From assembly GCA_025451535.1 (NCBI GenBank), contig JANWKE010000123.1, positions 1-54,533 on the forward strand: a stretch of 54,533 nt of DNA, written 5' to 3'. The notes under the pieces were generated by a model. The model was given only the letters and a program-made list of their open reading frames with translations, had not been told where the DNA came from and did no database searches. Both the position numbers and the translations under genes were made by a program. Positions 2,003 to 49,679 of this stretch are shown here, one piece after another. This DNA comes from Verrucomicrobiia bacterium (GTDB taxonomy: Bacteria > Verrucomicrobiota > Verrucomicrobiia > Limisphaerales > UBA11358). How positions within the stretch are numbered: position 1 is the stretch's first letter; every line of letters begins with the position of its first letter.

Positions 2003-3291
2003 GCGCGGCAGCCGGCTTCAAGCGTCGGGGTGTTTTGATGTTTGTACATGATAAAATATTCACGGTGGCCGAGTTGTTCCGGTTTGCTGGGCTCGCCGGC
2101 GGCGACGCGCGTAACGAGACCGGCCAGCTCGCGGCCGGCCTGGGCGAGCGTGAGCTCACCCGTGAGCACACGGCCGGCATCGAAATCCATGTCGTCGGCC
2201 ATCGCGCGAAACGTGGTGCTGTTGCCGGTGATCTTGATGAGCGGCGCTACGGGACTGCCGATGACACTACCGCGTCCCGTCACGAACAAAACAATTTGCG
2301 AACCAGCACTGATCAAATCCATGATGCCTTCGGTGTCGTTCGGATTGGTATAGCCGAACTGCATGAAATGTTCGTCCGGCACGCTGTCGAGAACCCACAA
2401 GCCCGGCCCGCGCGGCGCTTCGGCTACCCGGATGACTCCTTGGATCGGTCGGGTGCCGCTCTTGGCAAAGGCGCCGAGGCTTTTTTCCTCGATGGTCGTG
2501 AGGCCGCCGGCAAAGTTGCCGGGTGAAACGGAATACTGCCGGACCGACTGGCAATAGCGCTCCGCTTTATCGTAGGCAGCCGCGAGTTGTTGTTTCGCTT
2601 CCGGGTTCGCTGCGCGCGATTGCATCGTTTCCCGCAAGCCGATCAGCTCCGCCGTTTCCTCGAAAATCGCGCGGCCACCGGCGTCCACCAGCAGATCAAA
2701 AAAGGCGCCGACCGTCGGATTTCCGGCGAGGCCGGAAGTTCCATCCGAGCCGCCGCACTCGCAGCCGACGGTTAAATCGGCCAGCGTCATGGGCACGCGC
2801 GGGGTTTCGCGGCGGATTTTTTCCCGGAGCCGGGCAGCGATTTCCTTTCCTTTGGCCACCGAGTTGCGTGTGCCGCCGTTTTGTTGAATGAAAAACCATT
2901 CAGCGGGCCGGCCCGAAACGCGCACCGCGTCGGCAATCCTTTCCGGTTGTGTGTATTCGCAACCAAGTCCGACGGACAGAACCGCGCCGACATTCGGATG
3001 GCGCGCGAGCGCGAGCATGAGACGGATGGCGTAGGCGTTGTCGTAGCAACCCGGAAAACCGATGACGTGGATATCTTCTTCGTTCGTCGCGATGGCGTGG
3101 GCAACGTGTTGCGCACATTCGACGGTATAAACAATGAGTACAAGGTTGCGAACCCCCTTGCGGCCATCGGGGCGCAAAAATCCCGACCAGGAGGTCGTAG
3201 CAACCGACGCAAGGAGGCTTTGGTCAATGACCGTCTTTTCAGTCAGAGCCTCGTTACCTCGGCTGCTACGCGAAAGGATATTATCAGGCAT
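1999..3291 (-). CDS. uxaA: Altronate dehydratase large subunit (UxaA C-terminal domain)
   Basis: The 430-residue protein has the UxaA/GarD catalytic fold. Conserved cysteines lie in GFPGCYDN (Cys82), GLGCEYT (Cys111) and VGCECGGSD (Cys177, Cys179), with the family start signature [10 protein letters not shown] at 40-49. UxaA dehydrates D-altronate to 2-keto-3-deoxygluconate in galacturonate catabolism. I chose the ATG at 3291 because it overlaps the stop of the small subunit by 8 nt; a longer frame would run through that gene. Residues about 8-32 are encoded by a palindromic repeat (3197-3269) and look foreign to the family. The substrate may be a related acid sugar. Confidence 0.88.
3197..3269. 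repeat. R2-family palindromic element inside uxaA large subunit
   Basis: Left arm 3197-3222 (starts gtagcaaccgacgcaagga) and right arm 3244-3269 (ends ctcggctgctac) are inverted repeats with about 21 of 26 positions matching. The element is translated as roughly residues 8-32 of the altronate dehydratase large subunit, ahead of the conserved RPDGR motif. Related copies lie at 40732-40795 and 48619-48683. Confidence 0.8.
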
Positions 3292-3613
3292 AGGCAGAAC
3301 TGGTATCCGTGGGCGCGCCGGAATGCAGGTCCAGCGTGCTGGAGCGGTCATCCACGTCGCTGGCGAGATTGTGCAGATGCACCCACGCGCCGCGCGCGAT
3401 GGGCTTTGTGACATGACCAATCCGGGCGCCGAATTTTATCACCGCGTCGCCGCCGACAAAATCCTTGAGTGCGACCTTGTGACCCCGCGAGATCTTTTCC
3501 AGCAACCGAATCTCCTGCGGTTGCGAACCGAGGATTTGAATTTGTCCGTCTGCGTCATCGAGCAGCGTCGCGACGTTGTCCTGCGGTTGAATCTGGAAAC
3601 AGCGTGGTTGCAT
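3284..3613 (-). CDS. Altronate dehydratase small subunit (UxaA N-terminal SAF domain)
   Basis: The 109-residue protein matches the SAF-type N-terminal domain of altronate/galactarate dehydratases. The segments ISRGHKVAL and AWVHLHNL are characteristic, and the His residues there are the likely catalytic or metal-contacting ones. I chose the ATG at 3613, giving [15 protein letters not shown] longer frame continues upstream only by translating the arm of a repeat. The stop overlaps the large-subunit start by 8 nt, so the two polypeptides are probably made as a pair. In many bacteria both domains form one chain; here they are split. Confidence 0.85.
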
Positions 3614-3617
3614 GGAA

Positions 3618-4064
3618 TTATTTGACCGCAAAGAACGCAAAGAACACAGAGAGCAAGGCAGAAAAACCAACAGCTGTGTTCCGCTGGACATTTTCTGACC
3701 AGGCGAACTTGCGAATTTCGAATTTGTAGGAACCGAAATTGATTAAGAGACCATCTTCCAAACGTGAAGATTTCAAATATCCGAGAACTTGCGCCTCGTG
3801 TTCTGGAGCGAGCGCTTTGGCGGTTTTGAGTTCGACGATTAAAGAATCCTCGATCAGCAAATCGGCAAGATATTCGCCAATTAGAGTTCCATCCTCGTCA
3901 AACACGTTGATGGGATGTTGTTGCTTCACGATCAGGCCGGCTTTGGACAGCCGGTGGGCCAGGGCATTTTCATATGCTTTTTCAAGATGGCCGTGCCCGT
4001 GATAAACATGAATGTCATAAGCAACCTGGCGGACCCGGTCGCACAAAGTCTTCATATCTTTCAT
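3618..4064 (-). CDS. GxxExxY protein, PD-(D/E)XK nuclease-like
   Basis: The 148-residue protein carries the family-defining GxxExxY motif as GHLEKAY (residues 25-31). It also has a nuclease-like core: Asp68 in EYLADLL, then Glu78-x-Lys80 in IVELK, matching the PD-(D/E)XK pattern. I know this family as one of uncharacterised small proteins, often multi-copy per genome, grouped with the PDDEXK superfamily. Its last eight residues (FFAFFAVK) are encoded by the repeat arm itself. It lies between a dehydratase gene and uxaA, 4 bp from the latter's start, flanked by inverted R1 arms. It is therefore better read as a passenger of a mobile repeat unit than as a pathway enzyme. Nuclease activity is inferred. 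Confidence 0.85.
   Translation of the reverse strand: MKDMKTLCDRVRQVAYDIHVYHGHGHLEKAYENALAHRLSKAGLIVKQQHPINVFDEDGTLIGEYLADLLIEDSLIVELKTAKALAPEHEAQVLGYLKSSRLEDGLLINFGSYKFEIRKFAWSENVQRNTAVGFSALLSVFFAFFAVK
3621..3654. repeat. R1 arm, downstream side of the GxxExxY gene
   Basis: Starts tttgaccgcaaagaacgcaa and continues with gaacacagagag. It encodes the C-terminal FFAFFAVK of the GxxExxY protein on the minus strand. It is the inverted partner of the arm at 4076-4108. Confidence 0.85.
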
Positions 4065-4075
4065 GACGTTTCCTT

Positions 4076-4108
4076 TCTTTGATTTCTCTGCGTTCTCTGC
4101 GGTTAAAT
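4076..4108. repeat. R1 arm, upstream side of the GxxExxY gene
   Basis: Contains ctctgcgttctctgcggtt. Read on the minus strand it is aaccgcagagaacgcagag, the inverted counterpart of 3621-3654. It lies between the dehydratase stop (4113) and the GxxExxY start (4064). Confidence 0.85.
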
Positions 4109-4112
4109 CATA

Positions 4113-5249
4113 TTATTTGGCTTTGGTCAATTTATGCTCCACGCAGGTGTTATCAATGGCGTGCCAATCCAATTCCACGCCAATGCCCGGTTTTTGCGGG
4201 ACATGCGCGACGCCATTTCTATCAATTGGATATTTGTCCTTCATCGGAAAACGGAACGGCTCTTCCGGAACGAGCAACTCGAAGTATTCGCAATTTTTAA
4301 TGGCGCAACTGACATGCAGGTTCGCCATGTCCATAAAACCCATCGTCGTGCAATGGACTTCGCAGCGCAAGCCGTGGGCCTCGGCGAGGTGGGCGATTTT
4401 CAATGCGCCGGTGACGCCGGGTTTCCAGGAAACATCCGCGCGCACGATGTCCACCGCGCCGAAGACAATCGCCTGGGCCACGCCCCATGGACCGCCGCGG
4501 GTGGTCTCCGTCGCGGCGATGGGGATGTCCAGCGTGGCGGAAAGCCTAGCGTATTTCGCGAGTTCAAAATCGCGGAACGGCTCTTCAAACCAGTGGTAAT
4601 TTAGCCTCTCCAGATCGCGCCCGACCCGAATCGCTTCTTCCAGCGAATACTCGGCGACCGGATCACTCATCAAAACGTAATCGTCACCCGCCGCTTCACG
4701 GAGCGCGCGGTGGATTTCCATGTCCTTGCGCCAGGGGCCGGGCGGATGGACTTTGTAGGCCCGGAAGCCGCGTTTTTTATAGGCACGCATTTCCTTCAGG
4801 TAATTTTCGGTCTCCGGCATGAACAGGCTGCTGGCGTACGTCGGCAGGCTCGTGCGGCATTCGCCGATGAATTGGTAGAGCGGCAAGCCGGCGGCTTGCG
4901 CGGCGATGTCCCACAGCGCCACGTCCACCGGGCCGGGCAGATAAACCGGGAAAAAGGTGATGTGCCGGTCAATCGTCCACAACTCGTGATAAATCGCCTC
5001 GCGCTCGCTGACGCGCCGGCCGAGCACGACCGGCGCAATGGTTTCCTGCAAATACGCCTGGGTGACGATGCTCGAACGCGCCGCAATTGCCGTCGCGTGG
5101 CCGAAAATTCCGGCATCCGTGTGCAATCGCAGGACGACCACGTCCCAGTTCATCGGGCTGCGGCCCATGCGCGCGGCGTCGAACAATTTTTCTTTGCGTT
5201 GACAGCGCCAGGTTTCGAATGCCGTAACGGTCGGATTGGAATTTTTCAT
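4113..5249 (-). CDS. Mandelate racemase/muconate lactonizing-type acid-sugar dehydratase
   Basis: The 378-residue cytoplasmic enzyme belongs to the enolase superfamily. Likely Mg2+ ligands are Asp196 (LMSDP), Glu222 (WFEEP) and Glu248 (AATE). A Lys166-x-His168 pair (AYKVHP) occupies the usual second-strand KxK position, with Asp272 (ADVSW) and His299 (EVHC) on the opposite side of the barrel. This layout abstracts the alpha-proton of an acid sugar and usually drives dehydration to a 2-keto-3-deoxy acid. A second acid-sugar dehydratase (uxaA) and an RraA-type aldolase are neighbours. Galactonate, rhamnonate or another uronate-derived acid is plausible; the KxH variant prevents a firm assignment. 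Repeat units bound the gene on both sides. Confidence 0.82.
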   Translation of the reverse strand: MKNSNPTVTAFETWRCQRKEKLFDAARMGRSPMNWDVVVLRLHTDAGIFGHATAIAARSSIVTQAYLQETIAPVVLGRRVSEREAIYHELWTIDRHITFFPVYLPGPVDVALWDIAAQAAGLPLYQFIGECRTSLPTYASSLFMPETENYLKEMRAYKKRGFRAYKVHPPGPWRKDMEIHRALREAAGDDYVLMSDPVAEYSLEEAIRVGRDLERLNYHWFEEPFRDFELAKYARLSATLDIPIAATETTRGGPWGVAQAIVFGAVDIVRADVSWKPGVTGALKIAHLAEAHGLRCEVHCTTMGFMDMANLHVSCAIKNCEYFELLVPEEPFRFPMKDKYPIDRNGVAHVPQKPGIGVELDWHAIDNTCVEHKLTKAK

Positions 5250-5433
5250 AATTTAACCGCAGAGAACGCAGAGAGCGCAGAGATGAAAATGGAAACAAGG
5301 CCCGCCTTGGATTCTTGCAGCTGTTCCGACCACGCGAACTTTCGGATTTCAAATTTGCAGCAGCCAAAGTTCATGAGAAGGTCATCCTCCAGCTGGGAAG
5401 ATTTCCGGTATCCGATGATTTGATGTCTTTCAT
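5246..5433 (-). pseudogene. Internally deleted remnant of a GxxExxY gene
   Basis: On the minus strand an ATG at 5433 begins MKDI, matching the intact gene's MKDM. The next bases already correspond to residues about 94 onward of the intact protein. A frame that does not connect to that ATG reads RKSSQLEDDLLMNFG, then CKFEIRKFAWSEQLQ, then ALSAFSAVK. The intact copy at 3618-4064 has KSSRLEDGLLINFG and YKFEIRKFAWSENVQ. About 90 codons are missing, including the motif and the putative nuclease residues, and the join is out of frame. It is a deletion derivative between two R1 arms. Confidence 0.85.
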
Positions 5434-5475
5434 GATTTGCCTTTCTTTGTGGTCCCTGCGTTCTTTGCGGTCAAA
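5252..5475. repeat. R1 repeat unit carrying the deleted GxxExxY remnant
   Basis: The left arm (5252-5282) contains ttaaccgcagagaacgcaga. The right arm (5446-5475) ends gcgttctttgcggtcaaa. The unit fills the whole gap between the dehydratase start (5249) and the RraA stop (5476), touching both genes within a few bases. It is about half the size of the intact GxxExxY unit. Confidence 0.85.
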
Positions 5476-6141
5476 TCACAATATTCCGTATTTCTTGAAG
5501 GCCGCGGTGCTGGTCATGCCGGCCTCGATTTCTTTGCGGACGAGTTTCTCACCGCGTGCTTTTGCCAGCGCGCGTTCGATAACTTCGGCTTCCACCTTTT
5601 TCGGCACCACGACCACGCCGTCGAGATCGCCGAAAACCAGATCACCCGGCTGTACCGCAACCGGTCCGATTTCAATCGGGCAGCGGAAATCCACGACCTG
5701 GGTGCGGACGGCGGAGTCCTGGGCAAAGCGTCCGCGCGAGAACACCGGCCAGTTCTGCTCCAAGACTTTCGGCGTGTCGCGATGAAAACCGTTGATCACC
5801 GCGCCCGCGGCGCCACGTTTCTTCGCCGTGGCCGTAAGGATTTCGCCCCAATAGGCACAGCGCATTTCGCCGCCGCTGGCGAGATAGATTTCGTCCGGCT
5901 GAAGCTGGTCGAGCGCTTCGGTGAGCAGCCCGAACGGTTTTTTCTGTTTGCCAAAAACGTCAATCATCACGACGGGCATCGCGCGGCCGGCCAGTCTCAT
6001 TTCCTCGCGCAGCGGCTGGAGGGGTTGCGGCAGGAACTGGTGCGTAAAACCGAGGTCGTCGAGGATGTCACCGACCACCGGCGTGAAAAGTTCGCGCGTG
6101 CAGAGGGCGCAGAGTTCGTGGTCAGTTTTCCATTCGGACAT
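5476..6141 (-). CDS. RraA/HMG-aldolase family protein
   Basis: The 221-residue protein fits the RraA-like fold shared by 4-hydroxy-4-methyl-2-oxoglutarate/oxaloacetate aldolases. The family signature appears as [12 protein letters not shown], with the conserved Arg121-Asp122 pair, followed by [15 protein letters not shown]. Members cleave or decarboxylate 2-keto acids with a divalent metal in the cytoplasm. Next to two acid-sugar dehydratases, it could perform a retro-aldol step on a keto-deoxy sugar acid. It lies between the ExuT-like transporter and the dehydratase. The RNase E-regulator role of E. coli RraA is unlikely here. Confidence 0.82.
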
Positions 6142-6150
6142 AAATCAATT

Positions 6151-6180
6151 AAACCGCAAAGAACGCACAGAACACAGAGA
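6151..6180. repeat. Solitary R1 arm (half element)
   Basis: The tract aaaccgcaaagaacgcacag plus aacacagaga matches the left arm of the other R1 copies. I find no matching right arm before the MFS stop at 6276. It lies 10 bp upstream of the RraA start. It looks like a truncated or solo copy. Confidence 0.75.
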
Positions 6181-6200
6181 AATTTCGCCGGCAAGACGAC

Positions 6201-40716: not shown

Positions 40717-40731
40717 GGGAATTCTTTTACA

Positions 40732-40795
40732 GTAGCGGCGGACGTCAGTCCGCTCTGATTCCGTTGGAGAATGGAGCCGACTCACGTCGGCTGCT
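40732..40795. repeat. R2-family palindromic element upstream of the apiosidase-like gene
   Basis: Left arm starts gtagcggcggacgtcagtcc; right arm gagccgactcacgtcggctg. It differs from the copy at 48619-48683 at only a few arm positions. It sits between the GH78 stop (40843) and the apiosidase-like start (40716), so it is intergenic, although an open frame passes through it. Confidence 0.85.
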
Positions 40796-48352: not shown

Positions 48353-49679
48353 ATACCGCTTTCCCGAATTTCTCCAGCGACTTTTTCAACTCCGGATATT
48401 TCGCCACGGCCTGCTCCATCGTCAGTCCTTCCGCCGCTGCCTCCCACCACCGCCGCAGCGAACGCACGCCCGCGGCCGCTCCGTCGGGATGGGCCATGAT
48501 GCCGCCGCCGGCCAGGTAAAGCAGATCCACAGTTTTTGTCCGGCGATAGGTTTCCAGCGCCTGGCCGCCCCATTGACCGGAGGAAACAACCGGGAGAACA
48601 GAAAAACCGCCGATGGTTGTAGCAGCGGACGTGAGTCCGCTCTGACTCTCGCGAAGTTTGAGCCGACTCACGTCGGTTGCCACGGTATCTGGAAACAATG
48701 GTTTCAGGCATGACTCGATGGAGCGCGCCACCGAATCGTTGCTTTCCCAGAATTTGTTCCCGATGCCGTTGACGTGGATCTGGTCCACCCCGGCCAGCCG
48801 CCAGAGTTTTTGATAAGCCGGAAATTCGATGCCGAGCACCGGATGCCGGTTTAACATGCCCCAGCCGTTGCGATGCCCGTGAATTGCCAGCGCGCCGAGG
48901 TCGCAGATTTTTTTTACGCCGGCGAGGCCGACGCTGTTCAGGCTCACCATGGCCGCCGTGCCTCCGGCGGAAACGATTTTCTCGTAGTGTCGCAGCATTG
49001 GCTCCAGCTCATCGCTGAGGTTGAATGCGTACATCACCTTCTTGCCGGTGCGATCGGCGTGCGCGTTGATAACGCGCATAACGGCGTCCACGCGCTCGTC
49101 GAAGGGGGAGTGCGGCGGATCGGCCATCAATTCGTCGTCTTTGATGAAATCGATACCCGCCTCGGCCAGTGTGCCGACCAGCTCCGCGGTTTGTGCCGGC
49201 GTCAGGCCGATGCTGGGCTTGATGATGGTGCCAATGAGCGGCCGGCCTTCCACACCGGTCAATTGTCGCGTGCCGGCGATGCCGAATTTCGGGCCGCGAA
49301 AATGTTGCGCAAACGAGGGCGGCAATTCCAAATCCATCAGCTTCAACCCGGAAAACTGGGACAGTTCGTACAGGTTGCCCTGATTGGTTGAGACCAGCGT
49401 CGGCAGATTGTAACCCATGTTTTCGACCGGCCACGACACGACGAGTTCTGCCCTCTGAAATGTTCCGCTGTTCGAGTGGCAGCCGGGCAGGGCGGGGGAG
49501 TTCACCGTTTCCAGCAGTGTGATTTTTTCGACCCGCGCGGCGAAACGTTGCTTCAACTCCTCAGTCTCACCCGGCACGGCGATGAACGTGCCCGACGATT
49601 GTTCGCCCGCCAGGCTGGCGGCCGCCAGTTCAACCGGCAGCGGTGTTTCGATGAGGTAAGTGGCCGAGATGCGATCCAT
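48351..49679 (-). CDS. RuBisCO-like protein (RLP), candidate oxo-isoapionate-phosphate decarboxylase
   Basis: The 442-residue protein has the RuBisCO large-subunit fold. Expected active-site residues are kept: Lys154 in GTIIKPSIGLTP, Lys180-Asp-Asp182-Glu183 in FIKDDELMADP (carbamylated Lys and Mg ligands), His269-Arg270 in IHGHRNGWGM, and Lys309 in GIGNKFWESND. Ser366 lies in VVSSGQWGGQ and the phosphate-binding glycines in YLAGGGIMAHPDG. It is therefore probably an active enolase-type enzyme, though loop 6 differs from true RuBisCO. Clustered with a DUF1537 kinase, it resembles the OiaX/OiaT enzymes of D-apionate catabolism. Residues 333-354 come from an R2 palindrome. It is the first gene of its operon. 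Confidence 0.88.
   Translation of the reverse strand: MDRISATYLIETPLPVELAAASLAGEQSSGTFIAVPGETEELKQRFAARVEKITLLETVNSPALPGCHSNSGTFQRAELVVSWPVENMGYNLPTLVSTNQGNLYELSQFSGLKLMDLELPPSFAQHFRGPKFGIAGTRQLTGVEGRPLIGTIIKPSIGLTPAQTAELVGTLAEAGIDFIKDDELMADPPHSPFDERVDAVMRVINAHADRTGKKVMYAFNLSDELEPMLRHYEKIVSAGGTAAMVSLNSVGLAGVKKICDLGALAIHGHRNGWGMLNRHPVLGIEFPAYQKLWRLAGVDQIHVNGIGNKFWESNDSVARSIESCLKPLFPDTVATDVSRLKLRESQSGLTSAATTIGGFSVLPVVSSGQWGGQALETYRRTKTVDLLYLAGGGIMAHPDGAAAGVRSLRRWWEAAAEGLTMEQAVAKYPELKKSLEKFGKAV
48619..48683. repeat. R2-family palindromic element in frame in the RuBisCO-like gene
   Basis: Left arm starts gtagcagcggacgtgagtcc; right arm gagccgactcacgtcggttg. It encodes about 22 residues (VATDVSRLKLRES then QSGLTSAATT) between the loop-6 lysine region and the Ser-Gly phosphate site. 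It is nearly identical in both arms to 40732-40795. Confidence 0.9.

Follow-up and report, generated by a model that had tools for sequence, protein, structure and literature searches.

GxxExxY genes between clade-matched iteron arms: a candidate RAYT/REPIN-like element with a putative PD-(D/E)XK nuclease

The MITEs that accompany DDE transposons illustrate a well-known organization of small mobile DNA, namely an autonomous gene together with deletion derivatives that have common terminal inverted repeats. A second organization emerges from the work on REPINs, where, in the excerpts of that account used here, gene-less hairpin doublets are scattered in the genome and a repeat group is tied to a specific enzyme (PMC3116915). 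The PD-(D/E)XK nucleases also enter this picture via the Rpn/YhgA-like proteins (PF04754), which were named transposase_31 and are described, in the part of the paper drawn upon, as promoting RecA-independent recombination (PMC5350276); excerpts of a preprint describe Rpn as anti-phage toxin–antitoxin systems (PMC10327210). The GxxExxY family is a common annotation, present in at least 69 of the 145 genomes of the phylum that were sampled. The passages of the open-licence literature naming it mention it in passing, with neither a function nor flanking arms being brought up in those passages.

Here, we describe a GxxExxY locus from a Verrucomicrobiia bacterium, lying in a stretch of 54,533 nucleotides (the window) that constitutes contig C123 of a 4.4 Mb assembly in 188 contigs. 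Uncultured Verrucomicrobia are its nearest matches bearing a name. The gene (3618–4064, minus strand) codes for a PD-(D/E)XK nuclease-like protein of 148 residues, as judged from profiles, residues and an AlphaFold2 model. An earlier note on this DNA had placed it between inverted arms of a repeat, R1, and both of these were located: one at the 3' end of the gene (3620–3652) and the other, inverted with respect to it, upstream (4076–4111). The note had further held that the arm encodes the last eight residues of the protein; the tail does lie within the 3' arm, with the translation giving a length of 9–10 residues, SVFFAFFAV(K), rather than eight. The whole element can be bounded at 3601–4111 by the empty site of a congener (G022), with 511 bp here corresponding to 9 bp there.

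The window protein matches TIGR04256 with an E-value of 1.2e-33 (115.9 bits; cut-off 35) and PF13366, PDDEXK_3, with one of 7.4e-32 (110.6 bits; cut-off 22). GxxExxY and PDDEXK_3 are the only profiles to exceed their cut-offs, and a Pfam scan to E 1 adds to the latter just a sub-threshold PhiKZ_gp244. Both the GxxExxY motif and the D...ExK residues of the PD-(D/E)XK core are present. Across 19 aligned proteins (that of the window and those of 18 of 31 loci, nine having been dropped for stops and L064, L069, L092 and L093 left out), G25, E28, D68, K80 and H89 are invariant and E78 and Y31 nearly so; at L068 an Ala replaces the near-invariant E78. A sequence search found no solved structure. The AlphaFold2 model of the window protein (pLDDT 88) was matched by Foldseek to the Cas4-like SSO0001 (4ic1; E 1.2e-4, probability 1.00), and a structural alignment of the two gave a Z of 9.8 and an rmsd of 6.3 with 107 aligned. 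The predicted fold is that of a PD-(D/E)XK nuclease, nearest to the Cas4/lambda-exonuclease type. Carriage by phages was considered and rejected, tblastn with the window protein giving no match in 50,697 phage records, as was a known defence gene, the protein having no PADLOC match.

The R1 repeat recurs nearby in several forms. About 1.2 kb from the gene, inverted R1 arms (5251–5283 and 5444–5476) surround an internally deleted derivative (5251–5476) that retains the first four codons and a C-terminal remnant. Its coding remnant (5324–5433, minus strand, start codon at 5433) begins with MKDI, as against MKDM in the intact gene, and picks up again at about codon 94 (LGYLKSS); with codons ~5–93 are gone E28, D68, E78, K80 and H89, bearing out the earlier description of a deleted copy bereft of the putative catalytic residues. 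A gene-less R1 hairpin occupies 1135–1221, with facing arms at 1138–1165 and 1193–1220. The pairing of the arms was borne out at the gene and the derivative; R1 arms occur singly too, as at 6148–6182. Between the R1 elements of the gene and the derivative lies a racemase-like gene (4113–5249); G028 lacks it at the corresponding place, which holds a GxxExxY element instead.

Genome-wide, the R1 20-mer AACCGCAAAGAACGCAAAGA has 29 matches with up to 3 mismatches in the 4.4 Mb, as opposed to none for a reversed-pattern control; thus, the R1 repeats are not a product of chance. They include gene-less hairpins of 56–87 bp, in the window (~1139–1219) and on contigs C34, C39 and C103, and numerous arms that stand singly. 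Counting by eye among the matches listed, at least 24 facing R1 pairs are found in seven genomes: two hold a GxxExxY gene, one is the window derivative and the other 21 are 38–228 bp in extent, where the gene would not fit.

R1 is one arm family among many. A similarity search with the window protein gave 31 genes, of which 25 have an R1-like arm no more than 600 bp away; the reversed control pattern had two matches in the full set of 64 loci that were scanned. The genes lacking such an arm, six in number, are the most distant, with at most 46% identity. We then compared the left and right flanks of genes for inverted repeats with no preset sequence, against 100 dinucleotide shuffles. The sample comprised 135 GxxExxY genes from 59 related genomes, 132 of them testable; outside it are about nine weak or fragmentary matches above the cut-off, those below the cut-off and a further tail of matches. 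Inverted arms beating all 100 shuffles were found at 111 of the 132 genes (119 at p < 0.05). Among genes with full flanks, 106/126 have such arms, as against 4/177 random segments, 0/45 neighbouring ORFs and 2/32 window ORFs, one of these two being the gene between both R1 elements. A second phylum sample, 29 of 30 loci that were among the best-scoring of many matches, yielded inverted arms at 25 and an iteron score (see below) of at least 15 at 21 of the 29. Further afield, in 16 loci of a cross-phylum set (plasmid records and other MAGs), the arms reached p 0.005 at 11, Bacteroides, Sphingomonas, Gemmatirosa and Nevskia being among the significant ones, and 0.04 at one, and were non-significant at 0.05 in four. 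In the window genome itself two of three testable genes pass, L002 being the one that fails. The failures in the main sample (21/132) include genes of ordinary length and five long members (L185, L187, L189, L191 and L192). These last have frames of 266–302 aa with non-significant arms, three of them carrying two domain matches per frame, and perhaps represent another use of the domain. The earlier question of whether every GxxExxY gene is bounded by R1 hence needs recasting: R1 is limited to one clade, and other genes bear arm families of their own, which strengthens the idea of a gene–arm unit. The claim that gene and repeat form one unit stands, and we regard the linkage itself as practically certain from these comparisons.

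The arms possess a characteristic internal structure. In the 91 loci with an arm score of at least 34, which were used for both the iteron and the target-site duplication tests, three similar 7-mers (at least 17/21 matches) are present in 162/182 arms, against 1–7/182 in ten shuffle sets and 0/124 in random 42-mers. At a score of at least 15 the counts are 174/182 arms and 16–28/182 in single shuffles; the mean of three shuffles (6/182) is too lenient a control at that level, and level 17 is the one reported. The iterons are mostly spaced by 8–11 bp, approximately one helical turn, and their units include CGCAAAG, CACAGAG, CGCCAAG, CACGGAT, CACAGAT, CGCTAAT and GCGAAGG, with a consensus of about CRCNRAK. 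The left and right arms of a locus are 82% identical; left and right arms from loci with unlike proteins average 43%.

Comparing arms with proteins over 107 genes (p < 0.01 and score at least 30), we found that arms are more alike where the proteins are more nearly identical (Mantel rho 0.257, with 0.075 as the highest value in 500 permutations). Across genomes the mean arm score goes from 9–10 below 40% protein identity to 29 above 80%, while paralogues in the same genome average 11, near background; when the closest protein from a different genome is taken, its arm falls within the top 10% for 97 of the 107 genes. On the protein tree, the last-base class of the iteron requires five changes (shuffled minimum 31) and iteron spacing 24 (shuffled minimum 49), with labels covering 92 and 90 of the 107 rows. 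By these measures, iteron sequence tracks the protein clade and not the host, part of the match being due to inheritance of the unit as a whole. Between close relatives the arms are 82% identical, yet 68% of synonymous sites differ, and a median dN/dS of 0.059 (36 unsaturated of 57 pairs) indicates strong purifying selection on the protein; both halves of the unit are thus being maintained. Protein columns separating the iteron classes were dropped as evidence, being confounded by phylogeny.

Orthologous sites devoid of the element, which the earlier note had suggested looking for, do exist. At window 3601–4111 the congeners G022, G027 and G066 have 4–13 bp instead, with flanks 71–87% identical; as G068 carries there ~100 bp of a different sequence, one end of which resembles an arm, and the gene is present in G028, a more distant genome, gain is indistinguishable from loss at this site. 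G022 also has the hairpin at 1135–1221, which is missing from the orthologous position of both G027 and G066. A further empty site comes from the relatives of Sphingomonas parapaucimobilis, where the element separates fabD from fabG. These genes adjoin in S. paeninsulae, Methylobacterium, Rhizobium and Sinorhizobium, and gene order in these genomes clearly points to insertion as the direction. In Bacteroides finegoldii the element sits between radA and a FAD gene, a gap of 13 bp in Parabacteroides distasonis and the place of another ORF in Phocaeicola massiliensis, which is consistent with insertion. Further, one gene junction holds five different elements in five congeners: three GxxExxY units (two of their proteins confirmed by profile, the third among the matches of the main search) with the arms CACGGAT, CGCGAATT and CACGAATT, and two gene-less hairpins with the arms CGCAAAG and CACAGAT. 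Another junction has a GxxExxY unit in G000, 189 bp with CACGGAT-type arms in G022 and CACGGAT arms around a DUF7683 ORF in G027. The elements examined are placed tightly at gene ends.

Movement, when it occurs, appears to be infrequent. Among 56 close pairs with sufficient flanks, both flanks are homologous in 30, one in 6 and neither in 20; the 30 imply that the gene often remains at one locus. The earlier proposal of an autonomous element with a deleted derivative is accordingly borne out as to the derivative and the gene-less hairpins, with movement being rarer than it implied. No excess of target-site duplications was detectable at the 91 loci (mean shared k-mer 3.58 versus 3.52 ± 0.09 permuted); wider windows give 4.95 versus 4.77 ± 0.12, under the permutation maximum, and old insertions may have lost the duplication. 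The picture suggested by these genome comparisons is one of genes mostly resident and occasionally moving, plus gene-less hairpins, which resembles that of the REPIN work (PMC3116915), and the gene with its arms very likely constitutes a mobile unit. The window also has other dispersed repeats: one of ~92 bp at 3193–3283 (GTAGCAACCGACGCAAGG...CCTCGGCTGCTACG) recurs in many congeners among the matches listed, its place being taken by only 12–16 bp in G027, G066 and G068. Copies of a short repeat that trails the GxxExxY locus L179 (2045–2115) lie at 40729–40794 and 48619–48685, with many copies in G000 and G027 among the matches listed.

The abundance of arms relates to the presence of the gene. 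Genomes with an R1-clade gene (identity of 60% or more; n = 9) have a mean of 17.7 R1 arms versus 2.1 in those without (n = 50; p 2.7e-5), and an R1 match occurs in 30/59 genomes overall and in 0/9 of those lacking GxxExxY (P 0.0008). G030, G031 and G043 have 14–16 R1 arms each and no R1-clade gene, and G004 has eight CACAGAT-type arms and no GxxExxY gene. The corresponding count test for CACAGAT gave p 0.013 with the clade found in two genomes and was non-significant with a wider clade (p 0.15). Among 20 places inspected in G040 (L286–L304), 11 hold a paired CACAGAT hairpin, and no fewer than six of the 11 are inside a larger, unrelated repeat of ~170–200 bp, which has an end like TTAAATCCGGCAGTTGAAAG and was apparently spread by another system. 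Since the larger repeat carries the hairpins, some copy numbers are not due to GxxExxY. G193 (contig C1, L321), which belongs to the same class and is assembled as a single contig, has at least 11 GxxExxY matches among those listed.

Taken together, we favor the reading that GxxExxY genes and their arms form a mobile RAYT/REPIN-like system whose operator is an unrelated nuclease recognizing its own arms, a reading to which we assign a probability of roughly 0.62. The G040 hairpins lend themselves to a different account, in which GxxExxY is a passenger between arms moved by another enzyme, be it a RAYT, a DDE transposase or host recombination. In the same vein, the CACGGAT-armed element of G027 holds in place of the nuclease the DUF7683 ORF (PF24731, E 5.9e-8; L267:1727–2152), a possible cargo of a GxxExxY-type element. 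That arm sequence tracks the GxxExxY clade is at odds with a passenger, and the RAYT-type genes seem not to fill the role of the mover: in five R1-bearing genomes, 12 of 13 testable PF01797 genes come with separate hairpin-like inverted repeats, and among 17 loci examined, drawn from 32 matches, an R1 match lies within 1500 bp of such a gene at one. We therefore reject RAYT as the mover of R1 for now and consider passenger status as a whole unlikely.

A vertically kept host function, with arms being cut or controlled in repair, recombination or regulation and their dispersal a rare by-product, would sit well with the retention of both flanks in 30/56 close pairs, the strong purifying selection and the tight placement at gene ends. 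It accommodates poorly the 20/56 pairs with neither flank in common, the lineage-specific insertion within the conserved fabD/fabG operon and the single site with five different elements in five species, and we judge it rather improbable. The terminal inverted repeats, deletion derivative and gene-less copies would likewise be expected of an ordinary IS–MITE pair, that is, a conventional transposon with an oddly named transposase; however, only the GxxExxY and PDDEXK_3 profiles exceed their cut-offs, the predicted fold is a nuclease of the Cas4/lambda-exonuclease type, each arm has three iterons and an excess of target duplications was not seen, making this account highly implausible.

Returning to the RAYT/REPIN-like reading, we advance the following mechanism. 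A class of small mobile elements in bacteria would have GxxExxY as its dedicated nuclease. The elements would end in inverted arms, each made of three short iterons, and the iteron sequence recognized would be particular to the protein clade. Binding to the arms would probably be oligomeric, with about one subunit contact per helical turn. The nuclease might then cleave the arms around its own gene and act in trans on copies with matching arms, be they hairpins that lack the gene or deletion derivatives, and would thereby spread or maintain arm copies at gene junctions, as is thought for RAYT transposases and REPINs. That GxxExxY is the mobilizing enzyme is, on the comparative data, somewhat better than an even bet. 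We see an even chance that the GxxExxY proteins define a novel enzymatic class among autonomous mobile elements, in which a lone small PD-(D/E)XK nuclease reads clade-matched inverted triple-iteron ends and spreads itself, its derivatives, hairpins and occasional cargo in several phyla. To our knowledge, no case is known of a nuclease with this fold driving a mobile element by itself. A mobile unit of such a kind looks to be absent from the open-licence literature searched, and earlier work elsewhere is possible. The kind would be new if the nuclease is the mover; were it cargo, the repeats would stay new and the kind would be ordinary. The GxxExxY family gains a specific and testable candidate substrate in its own arms. 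If the mechanism is true, it would account for hairpin repeats with iterons, themselves a large class, and many natural protein–arm pairs would let the evolution of DNA specificity be studied.

In terms of known systems, the protein is a member of the TIGR04256/PF13366 family by profile, motif and predicted fold, and is, like Rpn, of the PD-(D/E)XK nuclease type by prediction. It had no match to PF04754 (Transposase_31) to E 1, in a search whose filters can drop weak ones. The term "inverted repeat" is absent from the main text of the Rpn paper (PMC5350276). With MITEs and DDE transposons the element shares terminal inverted repeats and a deletion derivative, and differs in having iterated ends, an undetected target duplication and no DDE domain match in the Pfam scan. 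From RAYTs, with their Y1_Tnp domain (PF01797), which we take to be of the HUH type, it is set apart by its PD-(D/E)XK match and the absence of a PF01797 match; in addition, its arms hold three iterons, unlike those of RAYT/REPIN systems, and where RAYT-type and GxxExxY genes share genomes their repeats differ. As the enzyme class differs, this is not a member of the RAYT/REPIN systems despite the similar working. The likeness is one of organization: a nuclease-type gene beside inverted short repeats with gene-less doublets elsewhere, and, as in the excerpts of the REPIN account, a repeat group paired with a particular enzyme (PMC3116915).
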